This document shows positions 1,444 through 31,459 of a stretch of 38,607 nucleotides of DNA, one piece after another. The notes beneath the pieces were generated by a model. That model saw only the letters and a program-made list of their open reading frames with translations, made no database searches and was not told where the DNA came from. The translations under genes were made by a program, and so were the position numbers. The DNA comes from a virus: positions 1-38,607 of the IMG/VR virus record IMGVR_UViG_3300025949_000055, one strand, 5' to 3'. The first letter of the stretch is position 1. Each line of letters opens with the position of its first letter.

Positions 1444-3513
1444 CTATTGCCACGGAAACAAGCCCCTGTCAGGCGGCCTGAAATCAGACCACGGAAGCGC
1501 TACGGGTTGCTGTACAACATTTGCCGGCGAGTGTACAGCCAAAAATGGGCTGCCGTGTAGCGCGCGGATATAGCCCGAGTTCTGCAACGCCGTTAGTGCG
1601 TCCTTCTCAAACATTTTAGCGGCGGCTTCCTTATTGACGACGTACTGCGGGCGTTCGCCCTTGATGCTACCGCCTATCTCGGCCGCCACGCTATCGAACG
1701 ACACCATGTTGCCGGCCCGCAGGGCGTCCATGCCGATGGCTGTCACCCCGGGCAGCATCGCGGCCAGCTTCATAACGGCGGTTTGCTCGCGTTGTTGAGG
1801 CGTGGCCACTGTTGTACGTTTGAATACGTTTACGGTGGTGTCGCGCCCCTTCGTGTCTTTGCCATAGTTCTCCGACACGACGCGGCCAACGTAACTTTTG
1901 GCTTTTGGGGCGCCGCGCGCCTTGCCGCAGTCGATGGATATTTCGTCTCCCCGGCCGGCGGTGACGCGGTACATAAACCCGGCATTGCCCGATTTGGCGC
2001 CGTTGCCTTTCTGCCATGCGTCCTCGTTTCCGAGTGGCAAGTGGTCGGTAACGACGGTGGCGGCCTGCGTACGCCGGGCGATGTTTTTAAGCACAAACAT
2101 GGCTTTTAGAACGGCTTCGGTATCGTTGTCGGCAAAGCAGAGCCCCGACGCGCCCCACGTGTCCAACACTATCATGTCCACGCGCATGCCCATGGCGGCC
2201 ATTGCCTGGACTTGCGCGATACACTGTTGTTCCAGGCTGGCACCGTCGCACCCGCGTATCAGGTGGAAGCGAGCGGCCAGTTCCCGGGCGTTAGGTTCTT
2301 GCTTGACCAGATGGCGCATGCGCCGTTCGGTGCCGTAGTCGTCTTCAGCGGCAATCCAAAGCACGTGCCCGCTGGCGCGCTCTATGTCAGCGTCAAGCCA
2401 AGAGCGCCCCGTGAGATAGGCCAGGACAGCGTCACTAACCACCGTTGACTTGCCGGCGCCGCTGTGCCCCGTGAAAAAGTGAACTTCGCCGCATAGCAGA
2501 CGCTGATACAGAAGCCACGGCAGTTCGTCGGTGGTGTCCTCTAGTGAGAGTTCAAAGCCGGTGTGCGGTACGAGCGTCGGCGCTTGCTGGGCATCGGCCA
2601 AGCCCTGCACGAGCGTACGGCGGGACATGACCGCTTGCATTATCAGGTTGCCGCGCAACACGGGCAGCTGTTCTTGCCGATTGATTTCCTCGCCCAGCTT
2701 TCGGCCGCCGATACCTTCGTCCAGGTGGTGCCCGGCTTGAATTATGGCGTCTTCGATTTCCTGCCGCGTACACATGCCGTGCTGCATGGCAAATTTCAGC
2801 ACGCCCACCAGCGCGAAGATTGTAGAACCGCGCCCCTCCGTACGCCCCATTAAGTCATGCTTCAGCATGCCGAGATAGCGAACGGCAGCATCGCGGCCGG
2901 CTTGCCACTCGTCAAGGTTCTGCGGTGTGGCGTACTTCAGTTCATCTTCGCTGGCTGTCTCGTGCTCGGCCGTGAAGCGAAGCGACGTTCCGGCTCGCGT
3001 GGGCACGTCGGATAGGATTTGCTGAAGCTGGGGCGTCGTCAGCCGCGGCCATTCAACGTCCCAATTTTCCCATTGGTAAGGCTCGCCCGTGTCCTTGTGG
3101 TTGCCGAATGCGACGAACTGCCCACCCATAAGCTGCAGCTTTTCGCCATCGGGGAACGTGAACGTACGGCCCTGTACGGGCGCGTCCTTGAGAAAGAACG
3201 GAATAAGGAAACGGGGTTTACGGCCCCACCGTACAGGGATATTGGAGCCGAGCACTTCACGGAACGCCTGCAACAATCTGGCCGACGTTATCGGGTCGGA
3301 CGTGTCGCAATCGAATGCGGTCAACCCGCCGTCGCCGCAACGCAGCCCCACACCGCCCGCGCCTGGGTGTGGAATGGGGTGGCTCCAGACGTTCCAGCCC
3401 TCACCGATAGGCGCCTTGGAATTGCGCGCGATAGCCAGCGGGAACAGCCCGCGTGCAACGGCTTGCGTCCAGAAATCCTGTATGTTATTGGGAAAAGGCA
3501 ATTCGCATTCCAA
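1444..3513 (-). CDS. Primase/helicase: prim-pol domain plus RepA-like AAA ATPase
   Basis: This 689-aa protein should prime and unwind DNA for phage replication. Residues 13-160 match a bifunctional primase/polymerase domain: LPLAIAR-type start, GVGLRCGDGGLTAFDCD with candidate metal ligands D68 and D70, then a basic strand. Residues 320-560 form a RecA-fold helicase of the AAA_25/RepA type. Walker A is GHSGAGKST (349-357), Walker B ends MIVLD (D451), and a DHLPLGN motif near 490 looks like sensor or motif 3. The C-terminus ends LFPWQ. It is the largest gene of the leftward operon, followed 52 bp later by the SH3-like gene. A hairpin lies in its 5' leader. Confidence 0.9.
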   Translation of the reverse strand: MECELPFPNNIQDFWTQAVARGLFPLAIARNSKAPIGEGWNVWSHPIPHPGAGGVGLRCGDGGLTAFDCDTSDPITSARLLQAFREVLGSNIPVRWGRKPRFLIPFFLKDAPVQGRTFTFPDGEKLQLMGGQFVAFGNHKDTGEPYQWENWDVEWPRLTTPQLQQILSDVPTRAGTSLRFTAEHETASEDELKYATPQNLDEWQAGRDAAVRYLGMLKHDLMGRTEGRGSTIFALVGVLKFAMQHGMCTRQEIEDAIIQAGHHLDEGIGGRKLGEEINRQEQLPVLRGNLIMQAVMSRRTLVQGLADAQQAPTLVPHTGFELSLEDTTDELPWLLYQRLLCGEVHFFTGHSGAGKSTVVSDAVLAYLTGRSWLDADIERASGHVLWIAAEDDYGTERRMRHLVKQEPNARELAARFHLIRGCDGASLEQQCIAQVQAMAAMGMRVDMIVLDTWGASGLCFADNDTEAVLKAMFVLKNIARRTQAATVVTDHLPLGNEDAWQKGNGAKSGNAGFMYRVTAGRGDEISIDCGKARGAPKAKSYVGRVVSENYGKDTKGRDTTVNVFKRTTVATPQQREQTAVMKLAAMLPGVTAIGMDALRAGNMVSFDSVAAEIGGSIKGERPQYVVNKEAAAKMFEKDALTALQNSGYIRALHGSPFLAVHSPANVVQQPVALPWSDFRPPDRGLFPWQ

Positions 3514-3547: not shown

Positions 3548-3584
3548 AGCCCCCGGCGTTCACAGCGTCGGGGGCTTCGTTTTT
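3548..3584 (+). terminator. Intrinsic terminator facing right, inside a leftward operon
   Basis: AGCCCCCG (3548-3555) pairs with CGGGGGCT (3569-3576). Three further pairs, one of them G-U, extend the stem to 11 bp with loop TTCACAG. The T tract at 3580-3584 lies on the plus strand. The genes on both sides read leftward, so it would stop antisense transcription. On the minus strand the hairpin has no following T run. Confidence 0.7.
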
Positions 3585-4041
3585 AGGTGCTCTGCCATGG
3601 GAATGTCAAGGGCGGCGCGAACATACCCGCTTCGGACGTGCCGGGATTTTCCGCCGCTGCGACCGCTCGGGCTTCCATGGCCGCCGGCAACTCGTACACT
3701 GCAAGCCGGGCCTTAAGGACTTGCACTTCTGCGAATAGCTCCCGGTTTTTCTCGTAGAGCCCGGCCAGTTCTTCGCGCATAACGTCGTTGGACATGCGTA
3801 CGTCGTCCTGCACGTTCCCTTTACGGCCCCGGTGTTCTTCGCAGTTCTTCAGGCCAAAGTTGTTGCTGTCGGCTTCTCCCGCTGCAATCTTCGGCGTTAC
3901 GTGAATGGAGAACGGCTTGCCGCAGGTTTGGCACGTGCGCGTAAATTCGGTCAAGTTCCGATATTTTTTCATCCTGCCGTTGTGCGTCTTCAAATCAAAG
4001 TCGCCAGTTCGGCCCCGCGTCCACAGCGTACGGTCGTTCAT
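3583..4041 (-). CDS. Zinc-ribbon and coiled-coil hypothetical protein, 152 aa
   Basis: I chose ATG 4041, not the longer frame to 4377. It has a GAAGGGA ribosome site and overlaps the previous stop (TAATG), and the upstream extension runs antisense-like through two better genes. Residues 35-70 carry CQTCGKPF and a later NCEEH, a likely Cys2-Cys-His metal site. Residues 85-120 form a helix with heptads (LAGLYEKNRELFAEVQVL). The C-terminus is LTFPWQST. No family is recognised. It could be a nucleic-acid-binding accessory of the replication gene downstream. Confidence 0.65.
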   Translation of the reverse strand: MNDRTLWTRGRTGDFDLKTHNGRMKKYRNLTEFTRTCQTCGKPFSIHVTPKIAAGEADSNNFGLKNCEEHRGRKGNVQDDVRMSNDVMREELAGLYEKNRELFAEVQVLKARLAVYELPAAMEARAVAAAENPGTSEAGMFAPPLTFPWQST

Positions 4042-4593: not shown

Positions 4594-4775
4594 GACAGCC
4601 CCTCCGCCTTGTCCAGCAAGTCCACGATTGCATCTAGCGGTGTAGGCCCGCTGCCGACGGTGCAATCAAGATCGAAGCCGCCGAACGTGGCGTGCCACGC
4701 CTCGCGACCGAAGGTCCAGAACGCGGCGAGTTCGTCGTACACGACTTCGATTTCCGGGCGCGAGTTCATGTCCAT
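4590..4775 (-). CDS. Hypothetical protein, 61 aa
   Basis: The start ATG 4775 is five bases after AAGGTGG; a GTG three codons upstream is possible. The sequence VYDELAAFWTFGREAWHATF then GPTPLDAIVDLLDKAEG resembles small phage proteins with an alpha/beta layout and a C-terminal helix. No function is known. It overlaps the previous gene by 10 nt and the next by 4 nt. Confidence 0.65.
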   Translation of the reverse strand: MDMNSRPEIEVVYDELAAFWTFGREAWHATFGGFDLDCTVGSGPTPLDAIVDLLDKAEGLS

Positions 4776-4963
4776 GGCATCCACCTTACGTCCCCGCGCT
4801 CAAAAGCGCGCTTGGCATCTTCAGCCGTTTTGAAAACGCGGACACTAACTCGCGTCTTGCCCGGGAGGGTGGCGAACTGTTCCAGGTAATATCCGCCGTC
4901 GTCAGACGAGTAAACCAGGTCCGTGCCCGTGGTGGCGCCGCGCTTCAGGGGTTCGAAATCCAT
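4766..4963 (-). CDS. Hypothetical protein, 65 aa
   Basis: ATG 4963 lies one base after the stop of the 62-aa gene upstream. The core DLVYSSDDGGYYLEQFATLP then RVSVRVFKTAEDAKRAFERG suggests beta strands followed by a helix. The C-terminus reads WMPWT, another terminal Pro-Trp motif. No family is recognised. Confidence 0.65.
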   Translation of the reverse strand: MDFEPLKRGATTGTDLVYSSDDGGYYLEQFATLPGKTRVSVRVFKTAEDAKRAFERGDVRWMPWT

Positions 4964-4964
4964 G

Positions 4965-5153
4965 TCAGCACCATACCAGTTCGCGGTCGGAAGCGATCTC
5001 GCGAACTCTGTTAGGCAGCCATTCCGGGTCTTGCCCCGAGTGTAACGCGCACTTGCGGCAATAATCCGCGTGGTCGTTGTACAGGCGAAGTATGCGGGCG
5101 CTAAGCCCCCAGCCGTCGGCGTATTTGAACATGCCGGTGTCAGACGCGGTCAT
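4965..5153 (-). CDS. Hypothetical protein, 62 aa
   Basis: I chose ATG 5153, one base after the TAA of the 54-aa gene, over the longer frame, which would overlap that gene completely. It contains ILRLYNDHADYCRKCAL, a helix with a CxxC pair, and a C-terminal Cys. This could be a small metal or redox site, but the family is not recognised. Confidence 0.65.
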   Translation of the reverse strand: MTASDTGMFKYADGWGLSARILRLYNDHADYCRKCALHSGQDPEWLPNRVREIASDRELVWC

Positions 5154-5154
5154 G

Positions 5155-5319
5155 TTAGCGGCTCCCCTTGTTCGCGTGGTGAATGGCAGTGGCCAGCAAA
5201 TCGGACATTTCCGAAGAAAGCAGGCACGCGCTGAAGGGGTGCTTGCGGCTGTACGCGCGGGCCTTCTGCGCATTCTTCAGTGTGGGGTCGGCTCGGTAGG
5301 TTTCCAGAAGCTTCAGCAT
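5155..5319 (-). CDS. Hypothetical protein, 54 aa
   Basis: ATG 5319 follows the leader repeat at 5324-5338, so I reject the upstream in-frame start at 5355. The protein is a basic, mostly helical polypeptide (LKNAQKARAYSRKHPFSACL). The 35-bp promoter-like element lies 45 bp upstream of the start, so this is probably the first gene of a leftward transcript. Function unknown. Confidence 0.7.
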   Translation of the reverse strand: MLKLLETYRADPTLKNAQKARAYSRKHPFSACLLSSEMSDLLATAIHHANKGSR

Positions 5320-5323
5320 GTTT

Positions 5324-5338
5324 CGCTCTCCAGCGGTT
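5324..5338 (-). repeat. Leader repeat copy 2
   Basis: AACCGCTGGAGAGCG on the minus strand, ending five bases before ATG 5319. It is preceded by CGTACGTCAACACG, a variant of the GTACAACACGAAC stretch found before the rightward copies. Confidence 0.9.
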
Positions 5339-5363
5339 CGTGTTGACGTACGCATTTGTACAA

Positions 5364-5398
5364 CGTCCTTAGGGACTGTCTAGTAACGAAATGTTACA
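5364..5398 (-). promoter_or_regulatory. 35-bp promoter-like element, copy A
   Basis: Reading leftward, it starts TGTAACATTTCGT and ends TCCCTAAGGACG, and matches copy C at 29 of 35 positions. It ends 45 bp before ATG 5319. The distance, orientation and size fit a promoter for the leftward genes from 5319 down. The closing CCCTAAGG resembles the initiation end of T3/T7-type promoters, but no phage RNA polymerase is seen here. Confidence 0.65.
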
Positions 5399-5402
5399 GT
5401 CC

Positions 5403-5564
5403 CTACGCGTCAACCGGCTCGACTTCGATTTCCTGCCCACTCCCGAAGGGTCCAAAGACGCGGCGCCCTATTATGCGGGCCGTGGGTGCAGTGGGCGCTC
5501 TAACCACGCCCAAGTAACTGCGGTGCCCGGCGAAATTAATCCAATATACTTTGTAGGTGGTCAT
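5403..5564 (-). CDS. Hypothetical protein, 53 aa
   Basis: ATG 5564 follows a leader repeat whose GGAGAGC is the ribosome site; longer frames in this region are shadows. The protein begins TYKVYWINFAGHRSYLGVV, a beta-rich start, and ends acidic (GQEIEVEPVDA). It sits between promoter-like elements A and B. No family is recognised. Confidence 0.65.
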   Translation of the reverse strand: MTTYKVYWINFAGHRSYLGVVRAPTAPTARIIGRRVFGPFGSGQEIEVEPVDA

Positions 5565-5570
5565 TGTTTT

Positions 5571-5584
5571 GCTCTCCAGCGGTT
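5571..5584 (-). repeat. Leader repeat copy 3
   Basis: AACCGCTGGAGAGC on the minus strand before ATG 5564, with ACACGTACAACC directly upstream. This copy diverges after the GGAGAGC (AAAACA instead of GCAAC). Confidence 0.85.
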
Positions 5585-5601
5585 GGTTGTACGTGTGTGG
5601 C

Positions 5602-5847
5602 TTACGCGTCAATCCATATGTTGGCGAGGTATTCGCCGCGGCGGTTGAGCGGAGCGTAGCGGCATCCGGTGTGCAACTTCCACGCTTCGTTCTTGGCCCA
5701 GAACTTCGCTTCCTCCAGGGTTTCGAAGCGCTCGGAAGGGACGCGCTCACCGCCGACGGGCTTGTACACGCCGCGGAAGCCGCCACCCAATTCGTCCTTG
5801 ATCGGGTAGGCTGCGATGGTGGCGACGTGGACGACTGCGTTTGACAT
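5602..5847 (-). CDS. Hypothetical protein, 81 aa
   Basis: ATG 5847 follows a leader repeat. The in-frame extension to 5913 would run through the leader and is rejected. Residues 7-30 look like strands with a glycine turn (DELGGGFRGVYKP), then comes a helix RFETLEEAKFWAKNEAWKL and a C-terminal Arg/Tyr-rich end. The layout of a short sheet followed by an 'AKFWAKNEA' helix resembles small phage proteins of unknown function. It is the first leftward gene after the control region. Confidence 0.7.
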   Translation of the reverse strand: MSNAVVHVATIAAYPIKDELGGGFRGVYKPVGGERVPSERFETLEEAKFWAKNEAWKLHTGCRYAPLNRRGEYLANIWIDA

Positions 5848-5852
5848 TGGTG

Positions 5853-5867
5853 CGCTCTCCAGCGGTT
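5853..5867 (-). repeat. Leader repeat copy 4
   Basis: AACCGCTGGAGAGCG on the minus strand, five bases before ATG 5847, preceded by GTCGAACAACG. Confidence 0.9.
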
Positions 5868-5894
5868 CGTTGTTCGACAAAGCCACCCTAAAAA

Positions 5895-5929
5895 CATCCT
5901 TAGGGATGGTCAAATCACGAAATGTTACA
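5895..5929 (-). promoter_or_regulatory. 35-bp promoter-like element, copy B
   Basis: Reading leftward, TGTAACATTTCGTGATTTGA is followed by CCATCCCTAAGGATG. It matches copy C at 32 of 35 positions and ends 48 bp before ATG 5847. It is the likely promoter of the leftward operon. Confidence 0.7.
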
Positions 5930-5930
5930 A

Positions 5931-6064
5931 CTCCCTAGGGATTAAGTTGCTCCGTCCTTAGGGAGCGTCCTAATTGGGATTGGTACTTAGGGAGTGTCCT
6001 TAAGGGTGCCGTCCATTAACCCTACGGGTCTTGGGATGCTCCCTACAGAGCATTCCCTAAGGAA
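5931..6064. repeat. Cluster of CCCTAAGG / CCTTAGGG sites in the divergent gap
   Basis: The 292-bp gap between 5847 and 6140 holds no gene. It has a run of related sites: CTCCCTAGGGA near 5931-5941, TCCTTAGGGAG at 5955-5965, ACTTAGGGAG at 5985-5994, and the palindrome TTCCCTAAGGAA at 6053-6064. The same core ends all three 35-bp elements. It may be a set of decayed promoters, operators or part of a replication origin. The sequence alone does not decide. Confidence 0.5.
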
Positions 6065-6068
6065 GGGG

Positions 6069-6080
6069 GTCCGAATGGAC
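6069..6080. promoter_or_regulatory. GTCC-GAAT-GGAC palindrome, site 1
   Basis: GTCCGAATGGAC has 4-bp inverted arms around GAAT. An identical copy lies 38 bp downstream. Both precede the gene at 6140, so a dimeric regulator site is plausible. Confidence 0.4.
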
Positions 6081-6106
6081 TATCCCCATGCGCTACGCTA
6101 GGGATT

Positions 6107-6118
6107 GTCCGAATGGAC
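6107..6118. promoter_or_regulatory. GTCC-GAAT-GGAC palindrome, site 2
   Basis: Second identical GTCCGAATGGAC copy, ending 21 bp before ATG 6140. Confidence 0.4.
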
Positions 6119-6139
6119 CAAACGTGGTAACGGAGGGGA

Positions 6140-6595
6140 ATGGAACACGCCCTGCCAGCGGTACGGATTTCGCAGATCGCGCTTGAGACGGCTTTCAAGG
6201 CCGTTGACAGCATACGGCCGCTTGTACGGCTGGAAAGCGAGACGCTGACGACGGCTTGCGAGCGCGTCGGATTGCCAGCGGAGTTGGCGCGGCTGTGTGG
6301 CGGCCTGTTAGCATCGGTGGTTGACGATCTCGTAGCCATCGGCAAACTACGTCGCGCGGACTTCGAACGCACCAAGCGCAAACAACGCGTGCTGCAGGCG
6401 GCTACCGAGCCCGCACGTTCGGCGTTACGCTTGGCCGTGGCTGCGTCGCCTATCAACGGCCAAGCGGCTGTGGCGCATTGGGACGCGATTTGCGAGCCCC
6501 ACGAAACCGGCAAGCTGGCGTGGCTGTTGAACATGGACACCGAACTTGCGTACATGTACGGCCGGCGCCACGAACGCCGGATGGCGCGAGTGTAA
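6140..6595 (+). CDS. Helical hypothetical protein, 151 aa
   Basis: ATG 6140 follows GGAGGGGA. It is the first rightward gene after the control region. The protein looks all-helical, with amphipathic segments LETAFKAVDSIRPLVRLE and LCGGLLASVVDDLVAIGKL and a basic C-terminus (GRRHERRMARV). No helix-turn-helix is clear. The palindromic sites just upstream and its position make a regulatory or replication-initiation role possible (inference). Its TAA falls inside the promoter-like element copy C. Confidence 0.7.
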   Translation: MEHALPAVRISQIALETAFKAVDSIRPLVRLESETLTTACERVGLPAELARLCGGLLASVVDDLVAIGKLRRADFERTKRKQRVLQAATEPARSALRLAVAASPINGQAAVAHWDAICEPHETGKLAWLLNMDTELAYMYGRRHERRMARV

Positions 6596-6625
6596 CATTT
6601 CGTGATTTGATTATCCCTAAGGACG
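6591..6625 (+). promoter_or_regulatory. 35-bp promoter-like element, copy C
   Basis: TGTAACATTTCGTGATTTGA followed by TTATCCCTAAGGACG, on the plus strand, ending 47 bp before ATG 6673. Orientation and spacing mirror copies A and B. It overlaps the stop codon of the 151-aa gene and probably drives the rightward small-gene operon. Confidence 0.7.
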
Positions 6626-6653
6626 CGCGTACAACAGAACCATCGAAACGACG

Positions 6654-6668
6654 AACCGCTGGAGAGCG
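6654..6668 (+). repeat. Leader repeat copy 5
   Basis: AACCGCTGGAGAGCG, four bases before ATG 6673, preceded by GCGTACAACAGAACC. Confidence 0.9.
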
Positions 6669-6672
6669 CAAC

Positions 6673-6870
6673 ATGGCCCACCCCGTTTCAGGCATCGCAG
6701 GCCGCACCGAAATTTTCGTCCAGGCGCTCACCGAAGCGCGCGGCCCGCTGCAGCACGACGCACACTGCAAAGCTTGGCGCCTGCATCTGGCCGTCGTTGA
6801 CGCTGGCCTGCGGGCAGCTGCGGTTGCGGAGTGCGCCCGCGAAATCATCGGCCGCTTGACGGCGGCTTGA
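6673..6870 (+). CDS. Hypothetical protein, 65 aa
   Basis: ATG 6673 sits right after a leader repeat, so the longer frame from 6478 is rejected. The protein is helical: ALTEARGPLQHDAHCKAW and then a long Ala/Leu-rich helix to the end. No motif is recognised. First gene behind promoter-like element C. Confidence 0.65.
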   Translation: MAHPVSGIAGRTEIFVQALTEARGPLQHDAHCKAWRLHLAVVDAGLRAAAVAECAREIIGRLTAA

Positions 6871-6899
6871 AAACCACGTACAACACGAACACAACAACC

Positions 6900-6914
6900 A
6901 ACCGCTGGAGAGCG
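6900..6914 (+). repeat. Leader repeat copy 6
   Basis: AACCGCTGGAGAGCG before ATG 6919, preceded by CACGTACAACACGAACACAA, which is repeated almost exactly before copy 7. Confidence 0.9.
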
Positions 6915-6918
6915 CAAC

Positions 6919-7101
6919 ATGGCCCGCAAGTCTCAAATCAAAGTTGGTCACCACGTTATCGTGGACGACAGCTTGAATTTCTACCACAAGCGCGAAGTGC
7001 TGGTGACCGAAGTTCACGACGGCTTCGTGACCGTTGCCTGCGGTAACGTGACGTTCTCCCTAAGGAACATTCATTGCAAATATGCGGAGTACCAGGACTA
7101 G
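6919..7101 (+). CDS. Small beta-rich protein, 60 aa
   Basis: Starts at ATG 6919 after a leader repeat. The sequence IKVGHHVIVDDSLNFYHKRE, then EVLVTEVHDGFVTVACGNVTF, has the alternating pattern of an SH3-like or KOW-like small barrel. The function is unknown. A TCCCTAAGGA core occurs inside the gene near 7058. Confidence 0.65.
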   Translation: MARKSQIKVGHHVIVDDSLNFYHKREVLVTEVHDGFVTVACGNVTFSLRNIHCKYAEYQD

Positions 7102-7146
7102 GGGCTTGACAGCCCCCGAACTGCCACGTACAACACGAACACAACC

Positions 7147-7161
7147 AACCGCTGGAGAGCG
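7147..7161 (+). repeat. Leader repeat copy 7
   Basis: AACCGCTGGAGAGCG before ATG 7164, preceded by CACGTACAACACGAACACAA. About 45 bp upstream of this start are nearly identical to those of gene 6919. Confidence 0.9.
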
Positions 7162-7163
7162 CA

Positions 7164-7490
7164 ATGCAACAGTTAACCCCCAATCAAGTTACCATCCTGC
7201 AAGCCGCAGCCCTTTTCAACGAAGGTGACCTGGTGGACGCGTACGGCCGCCTGAAGGCCGAAGCTGCCGCCATCGAAGCCAAGCTGGAAGCCATCAAGGC
7301 CGCGCTGCAGGCCACCGGCAAGGCCGAGTTTCGCGACGGGGCGTTGTTCGACGCTACTATGTCCATTTCCGAAGGCCGCGAAACCGTGTCGGTCAAGGAA
7401 CTGCGGAGCGGGCTCGGCGCCGCTGCGGAACCGTTCATTAAGCGCGGCAAGGACGTGTACACGCTGCGCTGTACGGCGAAGGTGGCGTGA
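7164..7490 (+). CDS. Coiled-coil hypothetical protein, 108 aa
   Basis: ATG 7164 follows a leader repeat. Residues 25-55 form a strong heptad helix (RLKAEAAAIEAKLEAIKAAL). After that come ATGKAEFRDGALFDATMS and a basic end with YTLRC. This resembles uncharacterised phage proteins that pair an N-terminal coiled coil with a small beta domain. Exact role unknown. The stop overlaps the next ATG (ATGA). Confidence 0.7.
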   Translation: MQQLTPNQVTILQAAALFNEGDLVDAYGRLKAEAAAIEAKLEAIKAALQATGKAEFRDGALFDATMSISEGRETVSVKELRSGLGAAAEPFIKRGKDVYTLRCTAKVA

Positions 7491-7672
7491 TGGCCAACCC
7501 GAGCAAACAACGCCCTTACGTGGTCGAAGCGGAATACACGCCCGGCAAGTGGTACGCCGTCGAAGCCTTCCGCGCACGCGACGAAGCGGAAGCCATGCTG
7601 CCGGTCTACCGAAAGCGCGTGCCGCAGGTATCGGTACGAATGCGCGACGTACGCGAGGGCGCAGAACAATGA
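7487..7672 (+). CDS. Hypothetical protein, 61 aa
   Basis: ATG 7487 overlaps the previous stop, and its TGA overlaps the next ATG. The core YVVEAEYTPGKWYAVEAFRA, then a helix RDEAEAMLPVYRKRVP, gives a strand-strand-helix layout common in small phage accessory proteins. No family assigned. Confidence 0.65.
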   Translation: MMANPSKQRPYVVEAEYTPGKWYAVEAFRARDEAEAMLPVYRKRVPQVSVRMRDVREGAEQ

Positions 7673-29929: not shown

Positions 29930-31459
29930 ATGTTTCCGTGGGAGAAGCCCGTACCGCTCGACCGCGAAAGCATGCGTACGAGATTGCGGGACTTCGAACG
30001 CTATCGCGAGTTTCTGCGCATCCGACCGCGTACGGGCGGCGAGCGTATTCCTTTCGTCCTCAACAACGCGCAAACAGTCCTCCACGAGCGCATAGAAGCC
30101 GAGCGAAAAGAGTTCGGCATGGTGCGGGCTCTTATCCCCAAGGCACGCCGTATGGGCGTGAGCACGTACGTTGGTAGCCGATATTTCCACCGGACGGCGA
30201 CAGAGTTTGGCCGCCGTGCACAGGTGGTTGCCCACCGCACGGACAGCGCTACGAACCTGCACCGCGAAATCAAGGAATTTTACAACGGTTTGCCGCTGCC
30301 GTTGCGGCCGTCCGTCAGCTTGTCGAATGCTAGAGAGTTGATTTTCGACAAACTCAAGTCGTTGTACAAGGTAGCTTCCGCAGAAGGCGGCGACATTGGC
30401 CGTTCGGACGACTTTCATTTGTTGCACCTCTCGGAAGCGGCGTTCTTTGACAACACGGAAGACCTGTCATCGGGCCTACTGAAGACGGTGCTAGGGCTCC
30501 CCGGCACTGAAATAGCTATGGAGAGCACCGGCAACGGACAGTCGGGCATGTTCTACAACATGTGTGAGCAAGCCTACCGCGATCAAAATAAGGGCGAATG
30601 GCGCATCCACTTCCTGCCGTGGCACTTGATGCCAGAATACCGTACCGAAGTTCCGCAGGGCTGGAAGGCGCCGCGCGATTTTGAGGAATACGCCAAGCTG
30701 CACGGCTTGGACCGCGAGCAACTATATTGGTTCTGGAAAGAAAACTACACCACGGCCGTAATGAACGGCGGCCAGCCCGAAACCATCCACCGGCTCACGC
30801 GACAGGAATTTCCGGCCATATATAGCGAATGCTTTATGGCCGACAGCACGCTAGACTTTTTCCCGGCATCCATTGTCGCGGCGGCCATGGCGCGGCAGCC
30901 GACGCCCTCCGCAGGCGCGCTGAAACTGCTTTGCGTGGACCCTGCAGGCGACGGCCAAGACAAGCCTTTCGTGGGCGACCGTCAAGGCTCTGCGCTCGGG
31001 GCGCGCGTGTGGGGTGAACTCACGAGCCGGGACTTTAACGTACAAGCTGACTGGCTTGTAGCCGCCTTTGATCGTTTTAACATGGACGCTATTGTTATAG
31101 ATGCCACGGGCGGCGGCAAAGGACTAGTGGACGCCTGCAGGCTCCGCATGCGCAAGTACGGCCCCGAAAAAGTTGTTCCCGTCGTTTTCTCGTGGGGCGC
31201 CGTCAATGAAGTCCTGTACGGCAACCGGCGAGCGGAGTTGCACGACAAGGCGCAAAGGTGGCTGCAAGGGGGCGTCTCGATACCGAACGACAAAGCGCTG
31301 CAAGAGGAAGCCGCGGCCTATAAGTGGGGCACTGGTGGGTGCCGTCGTGACGAAAAGGGCCGGCTGTTCATGACGCCAAAAGAGAAGATCAAAAAGGAAC
31401 TTGGGCGCTCGCCCGATAAGCTGGACGTGCTGGCCGTCTCTATGGCGTTAGACGGTTAG
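29930..31459 (+). CDS. Terminase large subunit
   Basis: 509 aa. The ATPase domain has Walker A-like PKARRMGVST (70-79, lysine 71) and Walker B FHLLHLSEAAF with the catalytic Glu at 169. The nuclease domain has CVDPAGD (D337), IVIDATG (D391) and SPDKLDVL (D496/D499). It packages DNA into the prohead and cuts concatemers. Length fits the family. The N-terminus is MFPWEKP, a Pro-Trp motif shared with other proteins here. Its 3' end overlaps a convergent gene by 20 nt. Confidence 0.92.
   Translation: MFPWEKPVPLDRESMRTRLRDFERYREFLRIRPRTGGERIPFVLNNAQTVLHERIEAERKEFGMVRALIPKARRMGVSTYVGSRYFHRTATEFGRRAQVVAHRTDSATNLHREIKEFYNGLPLPLRPSVSLSNARELIFDKLKSLYKVASAEGGDIGRSDDFHLLHLSEAAFFDNTEDLSSGLLKTVLGLPGTEIAMESTGNGQSGMFYNMCEQAYRDQNKGEWRIHFLPWHLMPEYRTEVPQGWKAPRDFEEYAKLHGLDREQLYWFWKENYTTAVMNGGQPETIHRLTRQEFPAIYSECFMADSTLDFFPASIVAAAMARQPTPSAGALKLLCVDPAGDGQDKPFVGDRQGSALGARVWGELTSRDFNVQADWLVAAFDRFNMDAIVIDATGGGKGLVDACRLRMRKYGPEKVVPVVFSWGAVNEVLYGNRRAELHDKAQRWLQGGVSIPNDKALQEEAAAYKWGTGGCRRDEKGRLFMTPKEKIKKELGRSPDKLDVLAVSMALDG

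Follow-up and report, generated by a model that had tools for sequence, protein, structure and literature searches.

The immunity region of phage lambda (cI/Cro operators, PRM) contains divergent promoters with operators located between the -35 and -10 elements. In the late promoters of phages T7 and T3, a conserved block precedes the genes. Cluster A mycobacteriophages (L5/Bxb1) encode a helix-turn-helix repressor, with a C-terminal region that also affects specificity, and contain many short operators and stoperators throughout the genome, some of them in promoters (PMC6550527, PMC9283540); these sites are 13 bp long, asymmetric, and mostly located outside promoters, and the site consensus and the protein specificity shift together between relatives (heteroimmunity). 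Cluster K mycobacteriophages carry start-associated sequences, in which a leader that includes a ribosome-binding core is repeated right before the ATG of many small non-structural genes, and extended start-associated sequences, a second repeat upstream of some leaders (PMC3203893). Class II activators such as CRP use a dyad centered near -42, in front of a weak -35 element; class II CRP sites are treated in PMC5957442. The phage locus described here resembles each of these systems in part, and among phage repressor-operator systems, its closest counterpart appears to be Cluster A, where repressors and stoperators co-vary.

The DNA analyzed here (the window) consists of the 38,607 nucleotides of the virus record IMGVR_UViG_3300025949_000055. 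Judging from the sequences, the window and a 52,262-bp sister contig (IMGVR_UViG_3300005563_000008) represent practically the same phage, with one base different over the 16.6 kb compared; the sister contig looks complete and circularly assembled because it has a 90-bp terminal direct repeat. No cultured phage relatives were detected by DNA, by primase-helicase, or by the candidate regulator discussed below, and the identity of the terminase to its matches in cultured phages is no more than 27-31%. A plasmid search yielded weak domain matches only.

As claimed in the original prediction, a 35-bp element is present in three copies, A at 5364-5398 (minus strand), B at 5895-5929 (minus strand), and C at 6591-6625 (plus strand), with copy C identical to copy B in 32 and to copy A in 29 of the 35 positions; the distance to the start codon, put at 45-48 bp, is 44, 47, and 47 bp for the starts at 5319 (minus), 5847 (minus), and 6673 (plus), respectively. 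The three copies are far above the chance level. In the window, TGTAACATTTCGT occurs exactly three times, the six other matches having three mismatches each, and TCCCTAAGGA together with its one-mismatch variants occurs 12 times compared to 0.84 expected, a count that none of the shuffles reached. The 35-bp unit is not a single motif because its halves vary independently in relatives and the CCCTAAGG half is found also outside promoters. Rather, each copy is a composite, in which the 16-bp dyad TGWAACAWTTCGTKAY abuts the weak -35 element of a sigma70-type promoter, with the 10-bp palindrome TCCYTARGGA in the spacer between the -35 and -10 elements. Copy A (5355-5398, minus strand, start codon 5319) comprises the dyad TGTAACATTTCGTTAC (5398-5383), the -35 element TAGACA (5382-5377), the putative operator TCCCTAAGGA (5375-5366) inside a 16-bp spacer, and the -10 element TACAAA (5360-5355). 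The same order is observed in copy B (5885-5929, minus strand, start codon 5847), with the dyad TGTAACATTTCGTGAT (5929-5914), TTGACC (5913-5908), TCCCTAAGGA (5906-5897) inside a 17-bp spacer, and TAGGGT (5890-5885), and in copy C (6591-6635, plus strand, start codon 6673), with the dyad TGTAACATTTCGTGAT (6591-6606), TTGATT (6607-6612), TCCCTAAGGA (6614-6623), again inside a 17-bp spacer, and TACAAC (6630-6635). Copies A and B point in the opposite direction to C, and there are inverted arms of 33-38 bp, as would be expected of recombination or inversion sites; however, relatives contain single or same-orientation copies at promoters, the promoter spacing is always kept, and no invertase was noticed, so that we attach practically no probability to this possibility.

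The sigma70-type -35 and -10 elements, which are spaced by 16-17 bp within each of the copies A-C, had been missed in the original prediction. Two further promoters in the window, TTGACG-17-TACAAC (6856-6884, plus strand, before the gene at 6919) and TTGACA-17-TACAAC (7106-7134, plus strand, before the gene at 7164), lack the operator and any part of the 35-bp repeat, but their distance from the start codon is the same as in A-C. Downstream of A-C and of both operator-less promoters, a repeated leader, CGCTGGAGAGC, lies a few bases 5' of the ATG. Such a leader, CCGCTGGAGAGCG followed by ATG, occupies 6651-6675 (plus strand), and further copies end at the start codons at 6919 and 7164 on the plus strand and at 5847, 5564, 5319, and 519 on the minus strand. 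Across 22 related records, TTGACN-N16-18-TANNNN was found within 75 nt upstream of 65 of the 102 exact leaders, compared to a mean of 1.5 and a maximum of 6 in dinucleotide shuffles. The hexamers are 16-18 bp apart and at a consistent distance from the starts, although the -10 hexamers in this clade are often weak (TACANN). By consensus, copies A-C can be classified as sigma70-type promoters, which the sigma70 of the host would recognize. An Rfam search of window positions 5000-7500 returned no matches. The arrangement resembles that in Cluster K, with a repeated leader containing a ribosome-binding core right before the ATG of many small non-structural genes and a second repeat upstream of some leaders; the two differ in the leader itself, CGCTGGAGAGCG here vs GGGATAGGAGCCC in Cluster K, and in that the upstream repeat is here resolved into a promoter, an operator, and a dyad.

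The copies had been interpreted as promoters of a single-subunit RNA polymerase encoded by the phage itself, outside the window. The conserved block of about 35 bp before genes, with an end like that of T3 (CTAAAGGG) and a superficial similarity, CTAA..GG, to the T7/T3 late promoters, is in line with this idea. However, the T7-type polymerase profile PF00940, which may miss very divergent or non-T7-like polymerases, has no match in the end-repeat-closed sister genome or in 20 related records, whereas T7 polymerase, the positive control, was detected at E 1e-109, and the sigma70 architecture is common to A-C and to the operator-less promoters. Moreover, the supposedly T3-like end, CCCTAAGG, is a lineage-specific near-palindrome that is located in the spacer, occurs away from promoters as well, and is replaced by unrelated repeats in close relatives; it lies approximately 20-30 bp upstream of the predicted transcription start instead of at +1, and by sequence, the 35-bp block stops before reaching the proposed -10 element. 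Promoters of a phage single-subunit polymerase are therefore an extremely improbable interpretation of A-C, which differ from those of T7/T3 in overall architecture and in that the block is a palindromic putative operator. The remainder of the earlier reading is supported, in that the elements are promoter-like, divergent, and aimed at gene starts.

Among the phages with a matching regulator (see below), 17 of the 38 exact TCCYTARGGA sites are located directly 3' of a -35 element, with a -10 element and a leader downstream, and accordingly overlap a promoter, compared to 0.245% of random positions passing the same test. Other exact sites, in contigs L148, L149, L027, and L035, lie in evident promoters whose leader is divergent, and the remaining ones are found mainly within an array between divergent genes. 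In the window, this intergenic array (5930-6139) includes exact TCCYTARGGA-type palindromes at 5932, 5955, and 6054 and copies with one mismatch at 5984 and 5997. An isolated TCCCTAAGGA (7057-7066, plus strand) lies inside the open reading frame 6919-7101, outside any promoter. The palindrome is confined to some of the relatives; others contain different repeats, such as GTAAATTTAC, in the intergenic region. The array also contains two copies of GTCCGAATGGAC (6069-6080 and 6107-6118) that adjoin a possible hairpin around CGCTACGCT, found also in some relatives, which might act as a terminator or belong to an origin.

When genes were compared for one that varies with the repeat type, the gene immediately preceding that of the primase-helicase stood out. 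Its product, the candidate regulator (152 aa, 3583-4041, minus strand), is encoded in the leftward operon, to which promoters A and B lie upstream, and consists of an N-terminal three-stranded zinc domain (CxxC...CxxH), a long helix predicted to form a coiled coil, and a C-terminal FPWQST. A homolog is present in 22/22 relatives, with two in each of the L027 and L035 contigs, and among 24 homologs, only M1, W7, C37, C40, C67, R71, P148, and W149 are invariant. The structural model (mean pLDDT 86) is confident for residues 1-70, where it shows three strands plus a zinc-type knuckle, as well as for the long helix from residue 77. Pfam, PHROGs, and PDB sequence searches revealed no significant family, and Foldseek searches of PDB and viral models gave no matches below E 0.001, the best ones (E 0.09-0.5) being to Cren7-DNA complexes and to phage proteins that contain an HNH nuclease; matches in VIA-align were mostly to the long helix. 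The N-terminal domain is without a significant family match, which does not prove a new fold, and is a putative DNA-binding domain. The catalytic His/Asn set of HNH-type endonucleases is not conserved in the 24 homologs, and the protein resembles HNH proteins only weakly in PHROG and fold comparisons.

The repeat type goes with the N-terminal domain of the regulator and not with phylogeny, to the extent that this can be read from sequence comparison. In the seven records with what we call an alpha-class N-terminal domain, TCCYTARGGA was found 7, 4, 3, 4, 2, 2, and 5 times, compared to 0 in 15/15 records with other classes, the classes having first been drawn by eye. Over all pairs, array 6-mer similarity correlates with N-terminal domain identity (Mantel rho 0.56, p=0.0005, a p-value that assumes exchangeable phages), and the correlation is 0.57 given the helicase. 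Neither the helicase (-0.05) nor a conserved 151-aa protein encoded downstream of the array (0.02) tracks array similarity, and the value of 0.13 for the C-terminal part of the regulator drops to 0.03 after the N-terminal domain is accounted for. Natural swaps are apparent in individual pairs of phages. L029 and L038 share 94% identity in the helicase, 95% in the 151-aa protein, and 97% in the C-terminal part, but only 42% in the N-terminal domain, and their arrays differ; similarly, L022 and L023, with 100% identity in the 151-aa protein and 82% in the C-terminal part, are 25% identical in the N-terminal domain and have different arrays. Conversely, L017 and L027, with helicases only 74% identical, share 92% of the N-terminal domain and a similar array type.

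The same rule was observed in an independent set of phages. L120 and L122, with an alpha-class regulator, contain four exact sites each, and L115, L110, L121, and L124, with other classes, contain none. The L126 and L117 contigs contain sites despite a regulator of another class, and a search of the whole contigs identified a second, alpha-class regulator in each, 93% and 72% identical, respectively, to a known alpha domain. One exception is left: in L127, a 21-kb fragment, there is one TCCTTAAGGA site, and only a non-alpha regulator was seen. Overall, regulator specificity appears to change together with the operator, as judged by the Mantel test, the natural swaps, and the independent phages. 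Were the palindromes read by a host repressor, with the connection to the phage zinc protein resulting from linkage or shared hosts, different host lineages could account for the lineage-specific repeats; this is nevertheless very unlikely because close sisters (helicase 94%) differ in the array and N-terminal domain only, whereas distant phages (74%) share both, and because a second array type in a phage comes with a second regulator, a rule that correctly led to two more. The 151-aa protein (6140-6595, plus strand), which is all-helical and present in 22/22 relatives, was evaluated as another candidate for reading the repeats but set aside, given that array type and the divergence of this protein do not go together; its model (pLDDT 93) is without a clear structural relative, and no Pfam or PHROG match was found.

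The sequences show the promoter parts and how they are spaced, a palindrome that keeps a fixed position and correlates with the N-terminal domain, and the natural swaps. These features are best explained, in our assessment with good probability, by sigma70-type early promoters A-C that are read by the host, blocked by the phage zinc regulator at the spacer operators, and preceded by the dyad of a class II-like activator. We infer DNA binding, dimerization, repression, activation, and timing as follows. Host RNA polymerase would read A, B, and C early, with A and B driving the leftward replication operon and C driving small early genes rightward. Made from the leftward operon, the regulator would accumulate and bind TCCYTARGGA through its N-terminal zinc domain, with TCCCTAGGGA as the target, probably as a coiled-coil dimer. 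By occupying the region between the -35 and -10 elements, it would close A-C and thereby exert negative feedback on early transcription, and the array might be a high-affinity control site or a site linked to replication.

Several observations are also compatible with the protein being a replication initiator, the array an iteron origin, and the spacer sites autoregulatory side sites. The array is flanked by divergent operons, the primase-helicase gene follows that of the regulator, and in the sister genome, the cumulative GC skew is lowest at approximately 19.5-20 kb, just left of the array (approximately 21.2-21.4 kb), although divergent transcription alone could produce such a skew. Iteron initiators commonly repress their own promoters. 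On the other hand, in the L006 and L027 contigs, most of the exact sites are in promoter spacers, some of them kilobases away from the array, and Pfam and PHROGs searches recognized no initiator domain in the regulator. On balance, an initiator seems unlikely, and we favor the repressor acting on spacer operators. Whether this protein founds a new family of phage regulators, in which a three-stranded zinc N-terminal domain for palindromic operators is joined to an exchangeable coiled-coil C-terminal part, specificity shifts by a joint swap of the N-terminal domain and the array, and some phages have two such pairs, is in our view evenly balanced.

Like the Cluster A system, the proposed one combines a phage-encoded, here putative, DNA-binding protein with many short sites across the genome, some in promoters, and shifts of site consensus and protein specificity occur together between relatives. 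Unlike in Cluster A, the sites are 10-bp palindromes located largely in spacers or in one array, and only the zinc N-terminal domain tracks them. As in lambda, the divergent promoters contain (putative) operators between the -35 and -10 elements, and as in class II activators, the dyad is centered near the position typical of CRP; in contrast to both, no helix-turn-helix repressor was recognized, and the dyad and the spacer operator differ in sequence. If the proposed mechanism is correct, these phages provide naturally swapped regulator-operator pairs, some of them in near-identical phages whose only differences are the DNA-reading domain and the sites, and it becomes testable how phages change control specificity without a dead intermediate. 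Such joint exchange of the DNA-reading part and its sites would open the way to direct tests of how phage gene control evolves. This would, furthermore, be the early control system of an abundant group of uncultured phages, with no cultured member in the collections searched.

The upstream dyad TGWAACAWTTCGTKAY, with arms GTAAC and GTKAC and its center at about -43, has the geometry of a class II activator site directly upstream of a weak -35 element, and we interpret it as the likely site of an activator that would help this element. In 22 records, there are 10 perfect matches and 1 with one mismatch, and none at 0-1 mismatch is expected, but the pattern was drawn from the same sites, so that this count is descriptive. 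All copies but one touch the -35 element, 40-51 bp before a leader, and the -35 element is TTGAC in 2/13 promoters with the dyad vs 69/76 without it (p=6e-8). The dyad occurs without TCCYTARGGA in the L010, L034, and L040 contigs and recurs together with the operator in two additional phages, L148 and L149. A comparison of the presence and absence of all sister-genome open reading frames with that of the dyad revealed no convincing reader. In the L056-L057 contig (29478, minus strand) and the L080 contig (5684, minus strand), dyad half-sites, as seen by eye, are about 10-11 bp wider apart, approximately one helical turn, and precede TAGACA/TAGGCA.

Because a tyrosine-integrase domain (PF00589) was found in only 1/21 records (IMGVR_UViG_3300044840_000023, 51079-51468, minus strand), and two queries of bacterial genome contigs detected no host or prophage relatives, we do not classify this system as temperate immunity. 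The sole integrase carrier among the 21 encodes two regulators and contains two operator types. Finally, several unrelated proteins of this clade share a C-terminal motif, [FLMYIV]PW followed by E/Q/D/T, among them the regulator, the primase-helicase, and small early proteins, and FPWE is present at the N-terminus of the terminase; the carriers in the window are encoded at 3583-4041, 1444-3501, 1200-1391, and 4766-4963 on the minus strand and at 29930-31459 on the plus strand. The motif was found at 117 open reading frame ends vs 18 for the reversed motif and may be a docking motif.
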